Of a DNA stretch of 64,000 bases, positions 36,834-59,064 are shown piece by piece. The position numbers were made by a program, and so were the translations under genes. How positions within the stretch are numbered: position 1 is the stretch's first letter; every line of letters starts with the position of its first letter. The DNA lies in contig NZ_CP018091.1 of NCBI RefSeq assembly GCF_001885215.1, positions 1,488,001 through 1,552,000 on the forward strand, given 5' to 3'. Below the pieces are notes generated by a model. The model did not search any database. It saw only the letters and a program-made list of their open reading frames with translations, and was not told the DNA's origin. Origin of the DNA: Synechococcus sp. SynAce01. Its GTDB lineage: Bacteria; Cyanobacteriota; Cyanobacteriia; PCC-6307; Cyanobiaceae.

Positions 36834-37646
36834 ATGACCTTCACCCTGATCGCCGGTCCCTGTGTGATCGAGAGCCCTGAGCTGGTCTTCGAGATCGCCG
36901 AAAAGGTCAAGGCGATCACTGATCGCCTGGGCATCGATTACATCTTCAAGGCCAGTTTTGACAAGGCCAACCGCAGTTCGGGGGGCTCCTTCCGCGGACC
37001 CGGCGTTGCTGCAGGGCTTGATGTGCTGGCTGAAGTGAAACGGCGCTTTGGCCTGCGCGTGCTCACCGACATCCACGAGAGCGTGCAGGCGGCCCCCGTG
37101 GCAGAGGTGGTCGATGTGTTGCAGATCCCGGCCTTTCTCTGCCGCCAGAGCGACCTGCTGATCGCGGCCGCTGAGGCCACCCGCGGCACCGACAAGGTGA
37201 TCAACGTCAAGAAAGGTCAGTTTCTCGCTCCCTGGGACATGGCCCAGGTGGTGGCGAAGCTCCGGCAGGCCGGCGCTCCCGAGATCTGGCTGACGGAGCG
37301 GGGCAACAGCTTTGGCTACAACACCCTGGTGGTGGATTTCCGCAGCCTGCCCCAGCTCAGGGATCTGGGCTGTCCGGTGATTTTTGATGCCACCCATTCG
37401 GTACAGCAGCCCGGTGGTCAGGGCACGAGCAGCGGCGGCCAGCGGGAATTCGTGGCGCCCTTGGCCCGCGCCGCCGTGGCCGTGGGCGTGGATGGTTTGT
37501 TCATGGAGGTCCACCCCGATCCCGAGCAGGCCCTCAGCGATGGTCCCAACATGGTGCCCCTGCATCGCCTCGAAGCCCTGCTGGAGCAGCTGCTGGCGAT
37601 CCGGGCGCCGCTCCAGCAGGGGCCGCTGGCGCCCAGCACGCTCTAA
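36834..37646 (+). CDS. kdsA: 3-deoxy-8-phosphooctulonate (Kdo-8-P) synthase
   Basis: Condenses phosphoenolpyruvate and arabinose 5-phosphate to Kdo 8-phosphate. The 270-residue protein has the family blocks IAGPCVIES near the start, [12 protein letters not shown], the [11 protein letters not shown] metal-site region, [13 protein letters not shown] and [17 protein letters not shown] metal-ligand-type Cys is present in IAGPCVIES. kdsC follows after 18 bases and performs the next step; kdsD (making arabinose 5-phosphate) and kdsB are about 20 kb downstream. Confidence 0.94.
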
Positions 37647-37664
37647 GCATCCGGCAGGCTTCCC

Positions 37665-38246
37665 TTGCAGCATTCTTCGCTTCTGCGCCGTCTTCGTTTC
37701 CAGCTGGGGCTGCGCCTCTGCTGCCGCCGCCTTGATGGGCTGCGCTTGCTGGTGCTCGATGTCGATGGTGTGCTCACCGACGGTGGCCTGTATTACGGAT
37801 CGGAAGGCGAGCCACTCAAGCGCTTCGATGTGCGCGATGGCCTGGGGATCCGCTTGATCCAGTCGCTGGGCATCGAGGTGGCCTGTCTCAGTGGCGGCCG
37901 GGGCGGAGCCACCCAGCTGCGGGCGGCCCATCTCGGCATTCGCCACGTGCTGGTGGGAATCAAGGACAAGGCCGCCGCCATCGTCGAACTGGCTGCTTTG
38001 GTGGGTGTGGCGGCGGAGCAGACGGCCTACGTTGGCGACGACCTCAATGATCTGGTGGTGCGGGATCACGTTGGCCTGCTGCTCACCCCGGCCGACGCAC
38101 CCGACTGGTTCTGCCGCCGGGCCGATCTGGTGCTACCAGAGCCCGGCGGCCATGGCGCCATCCGCGCTCTGGCTGAGGCGCTCCTGTACCGCAGGGGCCG
38201 GATGGAGGCCCTGTTGAGCCAGGGCTGGACGGACCGCAATGCTTAA
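37665..38246 (+). CDS. kdsC: Kdo-8-phosphate phosphatase, KdsC type
   Basis: HAD phosphatase that hydrolyses Kdo 8-phosphate to Kdo. The 193-residue protein has the nucleophile motif LDVDGVLTDGGLYYG (about 30-44), motif II with CLSGGRGG and motif III/IV YVGDDLNDL. A 25-residue basic N-terminal extension precedes the HAD core; the frame opens with TTG at 37665. Its position directly after kdsA supports the specific assignment over other HAD phosphatases. It overlaps the next gene by 8 bases. Confidence 0.9.
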   Translation: MQHSSLLRRLRFQLGLRLCCRRLDGLRLLVLDVDGVLTDGGLYYGSEGEPLKRFDVRDGLGIRLIQSLGIEVACLSGGRGGATQLRAAHLGIRHVLVGIKDKAAAIVELAALVGVAAEQTAYVGDDLNDLVVRDHVGLLLTPADAPDWFCRRADLVLPEPGGHGAIRALAEALLYRRGRMEALLSQGWTDRNA

Positions 38247-57214: not shown

Positions 57215-57239
57215 CCGCAGCAGCAACCGGGGCCCAGCG

Positions 57240-58085
57240 GTGAACGAGGCGGACCTGCAGCAGGAGGCCGTGTCTCCTTGGCGCTGCCTGGTGGCGGTGC
57301 CGGCCCGGCTGGAGTCGTCGCGGCTGCCGAACAAGGTGATGGCCGACATCGGCGGCCAGCCGATGCTGCGGCGGGTGTTGGAGCGCTGCCGCCAGTCCCG
57401 ACGGGCGGCAGCGGTGGTGCTCTGCACCGACAGCGACCTGTTGCGGCAGGAGGCTGAGGCCTGGGGATTCCCCGTTCTGATGACAGCGGCCTCCTGCAGC
57501 TCCGGCAGCGACCGCCTCGCGTCTGTGGTGGAGGCGCTCATGGCCCTGGCCGCAGAAGCCACCGCCGGGCCGCAGTCGGGCCCGCCCGATCCCGCCCGCA
57601 CGGTGATCATCAACGTCCAGGGAGATCAGCCCTTCCTTGATCCGGCGGTGATCGATGCGATGGCGGAGGCCTTCAGCGCCACCACACCAGCCCCTGCCGT
57701 GCTCACCCCGGTGTACCGGATGGCGGCCGAGAAGGTGCACAACCCGAATGTGGTGAAAACCCTGTTGGCAGCAGACGGCCGCGCCCTCTACTTCTCCCGC
57801 TCGGCGATCCCCCACGTGCGCGGTATCGAGCCAGCCGACTGGCCCCAGCACGCCCCCTACTGGGGCCATGTGGGCATCTACGGCTATCGGGCCGATGTGC
57901 TGGCGCGCTGGGCTGGCCTGCCCGCCTCGCCGCTGGAGCAGATCGAGAAGCTTGAGCAGCTGCGTCTGATCGAGGCTGGCATCCCCGTGGGCACCTTCCC
58001 CGTTGACGGCGATTTCCTCTCGGTGGACACCGCCGAGCAGCTGGAGCAGGCCCGGGCCCTGGCCCTCAGCGCGCCGTTGGGCTGA
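57240..58085 (+). CDS. kdsB: CMP-Kdo synthetase (3-deoxy-manno-octulosonate cytidylyltransferase)
   Basis: Activates Kdo with CTP to CMP-Kdo. The 281-residue protein has VPARLESSRLPNK (20-32), IGGQPMLRRVLERC, the NVQGDQPFLDP block and a KLEQLRLIEAG C-terminal helix, all standard for KdsB. Start GTG at 57240. A TAAGCT box lies 26-31 bases before it. It is convergent with kdsD, with 20 bases of 3' overlap, so the two Kdo genes face each other. kdsA and kdsC lie about 20 kb upstream. Confidence 0.93.
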   Translation: MNEADLQQEAVSPWRCLVAVPARLESSRLPNKVMADIGGQPMLRRVLERCRQSRRAAAVVLCTDSDLLRQEAEAWGFPVLMTAASCSSGSDRLASVVEALMALAAEATAGPQSGPPDPARTVIINVQGDQPFLDPAVIDAMAEAFSATTPAPAVLTPVYRMAAEKVHNPNVVKTLLAADGRALYFSRSAIPHVRGIEPADWPQHAPYWGHVGIYGYRADVLARWAGLPASPLEQIEKLEQLRLIEAGIPVGTFPVDGDFLSVDTAEQLEQARALALSAPLG

Positions 58086-59064
58086 GCCCCGCCTGCACCA
58101 GATCATGCAGCCGCAACAGGCCCACCACCATTCCCTCCTGCCCTAAAACCGGCAACACGCCGATCGGTTTGCGGCGGTTGCGCTCCATGCGCTCCAGGGC
58201 GGTAACCGCCAGCAGATCCGCCGTCACGGTGATCGGGTCGGCGGTCATCAGTGCGGTGGCCTGCAGCTCGGCCCAGGCCGTGGCCGGATGCTGCTCCAGG
58301 GCCCGGCGCAGATCGCCGTCGGTGATCAGGCCGGCCAGCCGTTCGCCCGGCCCGCTCTTGCGCACCCAGCAGGCCCCGGCGCCATCGCGGGTGAGCAGGG
58401 CGATCACGGCCTGGAGGCTGGCCGATTCGGCCACGGGGTGGAGCCGCTCGGCCGGCACCATCAGATCACCCACCGTGAGGGTGAGCTGCTTGCCGAGCGC
58501 ACCGGCTGGGTGGTTCATGGCGAAGTCGGCGGGTGAGATCCCTCGCCGCTCCATCCAAACCGCCGCCAGGGCGTCACCAATCGCCATGGCCACGGCCGTG
58601 CTGGCGGTGGGGGCCAGGTTCAGTGGGCAGACCTCACGATCGACGCCGCCATCGAGCACCACTTCACAGCCGCGGGCCAGGCTTGAGTTCAACCGGCCCA
58701 CCAGGGCGATCCGGCCAGTGCCCCGCCGGCGCAGGTGGGGCAGGATCTCGATCAGCTCCTGGGTTTCGCCGCTGTTGGAGAGCAGCAGAGCCACGTCTTC
58801 GGGGGCGACGACGCCCAGGTCACCGTGCAGGGCATCGAGCGGGTTGAGGTAGAGCGCCATCAGCCCGATCGAGGAGAAGGTGGCGGCGATCTTGCGCGCC
58901 ACGATCCCGCTTTTGCCCACGCCGGTGATCACCAATTTGGCCCGCTGGTCGGCACAGCGCTCCAGCAGATCCAGGGCCGCATCCACCTGGCTTGCCTCCA
59001 GCCGCGTGGCCGCCGCCGCGATCGCCGCGGCTTCCTCGTTCAAGCAGCGCGTCAGTGCAGACAT
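58066..59064 (-). CDS. kdsD: Arabinose-5-phosphate isomerase KdsD (KpsF/GutQ family)
   Basis: Interconverts ribulose 5-phosphate and arabinose 5-phosphate, the first committed step to Kdo. The 332-residue protein has an N-terminal SIS domain (about 30-165) with VITGVGKSGIVARKIAATF and LLSNSGETQEL, followed by two CBS domains (about 205-265 and 275-328), the KdsD layout. A perfect AGGAGGT Shine-Dalgarno precedes the ATG by 9 bases. It follows smpB on the minus strand by 61 bases containing a short direct repeat. 3' end overlaps kdsB. Confidence 0.93.
   Translation of the reverse strand: MSALTRCLNEEAAAIAAAATRLEASQVDAALDLLERCADQRAKLVITGVGKSGIVARKIAATFSSIGLMALYLNPLDALHGDLGVVAPEDVALLLSNSGETQELIEILPHLRRRGTGRIALVGRLNSSLARGCEVVLDGGVDREVCPLNLAPTASTAVAMAIGDALAAVWMERRGISPADFAMNHPAGALGKQLTLTVGDLMVPAERLHPVAESASLQAVIALLTRDGAGACWVRKSGPGERLAGLITDGDLRRALEQHPATAWAELQATALMTADPITVTADLLAVTALERMERNRRKPIGVLPVLGQEGMVVGLLRLHDLVQAGLSPTAR

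Follow-up and report, generated by a model that had tools for sequence, protein, structure and literature searches.

The window considered here is a stretch of 64,000 bases from the genome of Synechococcus sp. SynAce01 (G000, contig C1, positions 1488001-1552000). It contains the four genes for the synthesis of CMP-Kdo (cytidine 5'-monophosphate-3-deoxy-D-manno-octulosonic acid) and, directly after one of them, the gene for a protein designated P0001 that is put forward as a candidate Kdo transferase. Given that the genome is a single contig of 2,750,634 bases and is 99.85% complete, absences of genes can be tested. The features of immediate interest are the following.

36834-37646, + strand: kdsA, Kdo-8-phosphate synthase (TIGR01362, 404.5 bits, equivalog cut-off 314)
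37665-38246, + strand: kdsC, Kdo-8-phosphate phosphatase (TIGR01670, 139.5 bits, cut-off 106.95, subfamily level)
38239-39321, + strand: P0001, 360 residues, candidate Kdo transferase, directly after kdsC and overlapping the kdsC stop by 8 bases
57240-58085, + strand: kdsB, CMP-Kdo synthetase (TIGR00466, 176 bits, equivalog cut-off 155.2; PDB matches agree)
58066-59064, - strand: kdsD/kpsF, arabinose-5-phosphate isomerase (TIGR00393, 243.3 bits, cut-off 203.7, subfamily level)

The first-pass annotation had placed kdsA, kdsC, kdsB and kdsD at these positions, and each was found there with a match to its family model in NCBIfam and to PDB sequences. KdsA matched KDO8P synthases (best E 2.1e-98), KdsC matched E. 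coli KdsC (2r8e, E 8.1e-35) and KdsD, which contains SIS and CBS domains, matched entries that name the same enzyme. At the equivalog level, KdsC scored under the cut-off of NF007019 (143.2 versus 208) and KdsD under that of NF008141 (218.7 versus 505). All four frames are intact, and ratios of nonsynonymous to synonymous substitution rates (dN/dS) of 0.05 for kdsA and 0.14 for kdsC, both determined against locus L094, indicate strong purifying selection. The two kds pairs lie about 19 kb apart around glycan genes, close to the 20 kb first given. Their description as bracketing a glycan locus is true of the window, but in a genome of the same genus (G003) and in several others all kds genes form one compact cluster.

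A search of the whole genome, as the first-pass annotation had proposed, was performed with three Pfam models for Kdo transferases: PF04413 (WaaA), PF05159 (KpsC/KpsS) and PF06258 (KdoT/ELM1), the last on our reading of the "ELM1-like" label of KdoT. The genome gave no match to any of them; this absence covers the three models, and glycosyltransferase (GT) family GT140 lies outside them. LpxC was found (283 bits) and was the only lpx gene searched for. Here, a marker of the lipid A pathway and CMP-Kdo synthesis coexist without a Kdo transferase detectable by the three models. The earlier remark that no WaaA-type transferase is visible holds for PF04413 in the window and in the whole genome, but it overlooks P0001 directly after kdsC. 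The first-pass annotation had left the acceptor of the Kdo open, a view that the lack of any match to the three models supports.

Cyanobacterial lipopolysaccharide (LPS) is described as lacking Kdo in the accessible part of a review, which nevertheless refers to earlier findings of Kdo in Anacystis nidulans and Spirulina (PMC4515613). The same text bears out the first-pass statement that no Kdo was found in the LPS of strains WH8102 and CC9311. The weight that the first-pass annotation gave to these two marine strains is less well supported: the closest P0001 relatives with a name belong to other strains (Synechococcus sp. CS-1329, Tobar12-5m-g, WH 5701, Vulcanococcus limneticus and metagenome-assembled genomes), so WH8102 and CC9311 may not be representative of this genome. 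A survey across the phylum, as excerpted, holds that cyanobacterial extracellular polysaccharides either lack a poly-Kdo linker or have Kdo moved by "different mechanisms" (PMC4594306), and a 2010 survey credited cyanobacteria with lpxA, lpxB, lpxC and lpxD only. Among the matches listed from the open-licence PubMed Central (PMC) literature, searched by titles and the beginnings of abstracts, no paper on a Kdo transferase of picocyanobacteria was found.

P0001 itself has no match in Pfam, NCBIfam or PHROG. A search of 50,697 phage records with an E limit of 0.01 also gave none. An alignment of 30 rows was assembled from P0001 and 29 relatives. When these 30 members were analysed by hmmscan at E up to 10, three scattered families were returned, with one member each, and neither PF04413 nor PF05159 was matched. 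The motifs HHYGHD, LEHG, CMG, NG, NPWFLD and GxHxGY are invariant across the alignment, and P(Y/F/W)(W/F)G is present near the C terminus in 30 of 30 rows; E108, H109, H184 and D222 are among the residues that never vary. Given dN/dS values of 0.28 (versus L094), 0.07 and 0.12 in three pairs, P0001 is a gene under constraint and has been subject to purifying selection. A phmmer search against PDB returned 23 matches at E up to 10, all of them antibody-type chains by name (best E 0.0033, 19.7 bits). These were rejected as chance because a profile of the 30 members gave no match to PDB sequences at E up to 10.

The distribution of P0001 was determined in a sample of 251 genomes from the GTDB family. 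Given that 109 of these relatives carry a Kdo-8-phosphate synthase above the curated cut-off (six genomes with weaker matches, including the 277-bit partial match of G143, were excluded), Kdo is probably common in the family and has been overlooked. Homologs of P0001 were found in 23 of the 251 genomes, under eight genus codes. All 23 carry kdsA, and P0001 is present in none of the 142 genomes without a counted kdsA (hypergeometric 1e-9, a value that ignores relatedness). With WaaA counted at >100 bits and KpsC/S at E <1e-30, no P0001-bearing genome carries WaaA, compared with 25 of the 109 that carry kdsA. These 109 divide into genomes with P0001 only (19), P0001 and KpsC/S (4), WaaA only (13), WaaA and KpsC/S (12), KpsC/S only (19) and none of the three (42); within the last group, G053 and G219 carry weaker PF05159 matches. 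This group includes genus codes g42 and g63, and 33 of its 42 members carry c3, a GT8-like protein described below.

Across the whole sample, the WaaA domain PF04413 exceeded 100 bits in 26 genomes, of genus codes g38 and g53, in contrast to the four lpx genes to which the 2010 survey limited cyanobacteria. Weak PF04413 matches (about 20 bits, in frames of ~420 residues) were also seen in five genomes of genus code g5 (G007, G168, G222, G231 and G255), at a distance of 2.4 kb from kdsA. A diverged WaaA was considered for these and dropped: in G231 the matched frame is a gene of GT4 type that belongs to cluster c1, and the weak g5 matches are probably ordinary GT4 enzymes.

Gene order was examined from the match coordinates in the 23 genomes and in locus maps drawn by homology-weighted picking of open reading frames and by tblastn. 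By the coordinates, 19 of the 23 genomes have P0001 after kdsA in the same orientation, with kdsC between them in 13 and without it in 6. In a set of 22 named loci, which partly coincides with the 23 genomes and thus gives no independent count, kdsA is directly upstream in 20 (that of L109 is cut by a contig end); in L111 it is adjacent but divergent, and in L113 a kdsA fragment lies 3.4 kb away at a contig end. Locus L112 (CALPNT020000044.1), titled as a Bifidobacterium breve metagenome-assembled genome, carries a picocyanobacterial kdsA-kdsC-P0001 locus, and the record looks mislabelled.

A tree of kdsA from P0001 loci comprises two deep clades (100/100), and P0001 was found with both. In the lineage-II loci L109, L111, L119, L156 and L157, kdsA is 42-48% and P0001 52-56% identical to the window; in L120-L123 the corresponding values are 79-84% and 42-44%. 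On this comparison of sequences, kdsA and P0001 have been re-paired, and such an exchange speaks for a functional link between them rather than one due to shared descent alone. A single clade of P0001 beside lineage-II kdsA was not rejected by the approximately unbiased test (p-AU 0.078); thus, re-pairing is claimed, and several independent swaps are not. When 292 genomes from across the phylum were searched with a profile, five P0001-family matches were obtained, four of them inside this GTDB family.

A structural model of P0001 was produced with AlphaFold2 from 23 sequences (mean predicted local distance difference test score, pLDDT, 76.5). Two Rossmann-like domains are present in the predicted structure, and residues 78-360 align to GT-B-type chains over 220-262 residues. 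The best match by VIA-align 2 was TagF (3l7l, Z 10.1, root mean square deviation (rmsd) 4.9, 247 residues aligned), followed by TarL (8va1, Z 10.0) and a capsule multienzyme with CMP (8a0c, Z 9.8). TagF, TarL and two capsule-polysaccharide multienzymes lead the matches as a group, with Z 9.2-10.1, rmsd 4.5-5.1, 244-262 residues aligned and 7-12% identity. The model supports the assignment of P0001 as a GT-B transferase. TagF, TarL and related capsule polymerases are the nearest solved folds, but their donors are cytidine diphosphate (CDP)-glycerol or CDP-ribitol, unlike that proposed for P0001. PF04464, which we take to be the TagF/TarL-type family model, was not matched by any of the 30 members at E up to 10 under filters that drop most weak matches. 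Chains of GT99, GT107 and GT140, the last being the family of KrkA, are absent among the 50 fold matches listed, which is not taken as evidence.

The remaining genes of the locus are as follows.

33062-33775, + strand: heme oxygenase, 30 bases upstream of the glycan run
33806-34888, + strand: GT-B-type glycosyltransferase, first glycan gene of the tight run (PF00534, 23.9 bits, under cut-off 26.4)
34921-36756, + strand: ABCB-type half-transporter, MsbA/PglK-like, candidate glycolipid flippase (PF00005, PF00664)
39318-39821, + strand: small protein with a lipoprotein-like N terminus (lipobox judged by eye), overlapping the P0001 stop
39789-41060, - strand: Wzy/O-antigen-ligase-like membrane protein (PF04932, 38.9 bits, cut-off 31.7)
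41057-42451, - strand: second Wzy/ligase-like membrane protein (PF04932, 30.2 bits, just under cut-off 31.7)
48198-49127, - strand: sulfotransferase (PF13469, 46.7 bits)
49087-54579, - strand: glycosyltransferase run of GT4, GT4, a no-family protein (51425-52372), GT2/7-like and GT4 (Pfam)
54601-55311, + strand: c3, GT8-like transferase (PF01501, 22.9 bits, under cut-off 24.3), with DCD and HWTLGGPW
55760-57190, + strand: CCA-type nucleotidyltransferase, 476 residues, just upstream of kdsB (TIGR02692, 71.8 bits, cut-off 438.8)

Heme oxygenase, the first glycosyltransferase, the ABC protein, kdsA, kdsC, P0001 and the small protein form a tight run on the + strand, with gaps of 30, 32, 77, 18, -8 and -4 bases. 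The best NCBIfam match of the ABC half-transporter is MsbA at 255.7 bits, far under the equivalog cut-off of 602. Its gene is upstream of kdsA in 17 of the 22 named loci, with the glycosyltransferase of the 33806 type alongside in 15 (tblastn maps). A multi-span protein, so judged by eye and lacking a Pfam match (cluster c13), lies downstream of P0001 in 18 of these loci and is the next mapped gene in 17; in the window, its place is occupied by the two Wzy_C-like proteins. The small protein is common to the window and L094 (cluster c36, two members), and no family was found for it in Pfam or NCBIfam. The heme oxygenase belongs to cluster c14, which is represented in 8 of the 29 loci mapped. 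Genes for a UvrD helicase and the CCA-type nucleotidyltransferase also lie between the two kds pairs. Promoter and terminator scans were near chance level.

The observation of a complete CMP-Kdo pathway is confirmed and the linkage of P0001 to kdsA is evident; at about even odds, P0001 is the best candidate for the missing Kdo attachment step. By the established pathway, KdsD supplies arabinose 5-phosphate, KdsA forms Kdo-8-phosphate, KdsC releases Kdo and KdsB converts it to CMP-Kdo. P0001 would then move Kdo from CMP-Kdo to a growing lipid-linked surface glycan, an O-chain or capsule, in the cytoplasm, and the neighbouring glycosyltransferases would lengthen the Kdo-bearing glycan. The MsbA/PglK-like ABC protein may flip this glycan, which the Wzy/ligase-type proteins would polymerize or attach. 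Kdo would thus be part of a variable glycan, and neither a WaaA-made lipid A link nor a KpsC/S-made capsule linker. The kdsA-P0001 core stays constant while the polymerase-like gene next to it changes, as would be expected of a Kdo-containing O-chain or capsule that varies. In this scheme, donor and acceptor, the chemistry of the linkage and the role of the flippase are all inferred. The chances are evenly balanced that P0001 represents a Kdo transferase of a new kind, with a proposed activity on a surface glycan as acceptor, operating within the ordinary CMP-Kdo route. The fuller proposal, that P0001 founds a new glycosyltransferase family moving Kdo from CMP-Kdo to a cyanobacterial surface glycan without the known retaining nucleophile and cytidine motifs, is tentative and falls a little short of an even chance.

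WaaA has the GT-B fold. WaaA/KdtA (GT30) uses CMP-Kdo from the same four enzymes, as proposed for P0001, but no PF04413 match occurs in this genome or in the 30 P0001 members, and none of the 26 genomes with a match >100 bits carries P0001. KpsC/KpsS (GT107) and WbbB (GT99) are described, in the available portion of a report on KrkA, as retaining beta-Kdo transferases of modified GT-B fold whose acceptor is a capsule linker or O-antigen; the marks said there to be common to retaining Kdo transferases are QxxxD, which holds the nucleophile, and an HP motif for cytidine (PMC12887879). By contrast, PF05159 is absent from this genome, and neither QxxxD nor (K/R)xHP is conserved in P0001. The N-terminal module of KrkA (GT140; 2026), which according to the same portion places Kdo inside the E. 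coli K13 capsule repeat, is a precedent in lacking similarity to earlier Kdo transferase families; it retains QxxxD and the HP motif (only xHP kept), whereas P0001 has neither as a conserved feature (PMC12887879). Because these motifs are not conserved, P0001 is placed, on its sequence, outside GT99, GT107 and GT140. A parallel is KdoT of Acinetobacter baumannii, an ELM1-like, overlooked GT-B protein that proved to be a WaaA-independent Kdo transferase, as given in the accessible part of its report (PMC12856342). By analogy, P0001 could work like KdoT, but the two cases differ in that PF06258 is absent from this genome and gave three weak matches in the 251 genomes, none above cut-off.

Several observations weigh against P0001 as a Kdo transferase. 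The cytidine-binding motif (K/R)xHP occurs in 0 of 30 rows, and the QxxxD nucleophile motif is not conserved in the C-terminal domain; Q...D is present in 12 of 30 rows, and the sole column common to at least five of them, column 57 of the alignment, belongs to the N-terminal part. In the structural model, residues 1-82 mostly have pLDDT <50, with better values after them. In VIA-align 2, UDP-GlcNAc (uridine diphosphate-N-acetylglucosamine) 2-epimerases follow at Z up to 9.1. Foldseek places TagF first, at TM-scores of 0.38-0.40, but mixed with UDP-using MGD1 and UDP-GlcNAc 2-epimerases, none of the scores exceeding 0.40. The predicted fold is compatible with a cytidine donor but indicates a fold, not a donor. 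In 4 of the 23 genomes P0001 lies 9-15 kb from kdsA, and these are the most divergent members (42-45% identity). Four P0001-bearing genomes also carry KpsC/S, and P0001 is limited to 23 of 109 Kdo makers. The fifth match across the phylum, in G480, is a 25% identical relative in a genome whose KdsA-model match reaches only 127 bits, under the cut-off. Given that this genome has no kdsA above cut-off, the wider P0001 family is not tied to Kdo. Finally, 42 of the 109 kdsA-bearing genomes have no P0001, WaaA or strong KpsC/S, so another transferase must exist somewhere.

The last point bears on the alternative that survives best, in which the enzyme that uses CMP-Kdo is a glycosyltransferase from another part of the genome, for example one that is GT140-like or unrecognized, and P0001 is a glycan glycosyltransferase travelling with kdsA for some other reason. 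Some other enzyme is needed in those 42 genomes, and GT140 has cyanobacterial homologs according to the available text on KrkA (PMC12887879). Against this stand the co-occurrence in 23 of 23 genomes, the adjacency in 19 of 23, the spread over eight genus codes and the fact that P0001 is re-paired with kdsA of two lineages; we regard the alternative as unlikely, though it deserves to be kept in view.

A second alternative assigns the role of general CMP-Kdo partner in picocyanobacteria to the GT8-like c3, with P0001 adding the next sugar or a second modification. c3 is indeed the more general Kdo partner, whereas in the window it is P0001 that shares a gene run with kdsA and kdsC, and the wider tie of c3 to kds genes too weighs against P0001. 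Matches to c3 were found in 88 of the 251 genomes, 82 of which carry kdsA; the six others comprise two less complete genomes (G113 and G227, 86% and 77%) and four with matches of 55-62% identity (G001, G005, G106 and G140). Above about 305 bits, a cut chosen after the scores had been seen, 80 of 80 genomes carry kdsA; at the same cut, c3 is present in 73 of 84 kdsA-bearing genomes without WaaA, in 7 of 25 with WaaA and in all 23 with P0001. Of the 19 mapped loci with kdsB, 13 have c3 immediately upstream of it, two genes separating them in the window, and a cyanophage has a 37% identical relative beside its own kdsB and kdsA. However, the DCD and HWTLGGPW motifs of c3 (five of five rows) point to a metal-using nucleotide-diphosphate-sugar enzyme, as such motifs do by the logic of GT8. 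The Kdo transferases KrkA, WbbB, KpsC and KdoT are all of GT-B fold in the accessible portions of their descriptions, and of the 18 phage records that contain a relative of c3, 17 fall outside the group of 14 in which kdsA was matched. The predicted model of c3, from five sequences, reached a pLDDT of only 36. Considered together with these points, a role of c3 in place of P0001 is judged improbable.

Phage relatives of c3 were seen in several settings. In Synechococcus phage S-SCSM2R (host WH7803; PQ898602.1, 209814-213339; L160), one cluster near psbA/psbD contains kdsB and kdsA together with two proteins of no assigned function and a glycosyltransferase resembling c3, and thus forms a Kdo-synthesis module carried by a phage; the name of this phage was not found in the open-licence PMC literature. 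Pelagibacter phage Mosig carries a c3-like transferase (MT647606.1, 127952-128614, 54% identity), as do Caulobacter giant phages, that of CcrColossus (NC_019406.1, 101207-101992) being three genes from an annotated alpha-2,3-sialyltransferase.

That no Kdo is displayed, the kds genes being mere relics or having a function away from the surface, would agree with the reported lack of Kdo in the LPS of WH8102 and CC9311 but is very improbable, given the strong purifying selection on kdsA and kdsC, the four intact frames and the origin of those data in other strains and in LPS only.

If P0001 is the Kdo transferase proposed here, cells without WaaA could display Kdo on an O-chain or capsule. One more family would then stand beside the few Kdo transferase families known, and Kdo would be sought in capsule and O-chain and not in lipid A alone. 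With a named candidate, present for instance in WH 5701, the question of how Kdo is attached becomes experimentally approachable.

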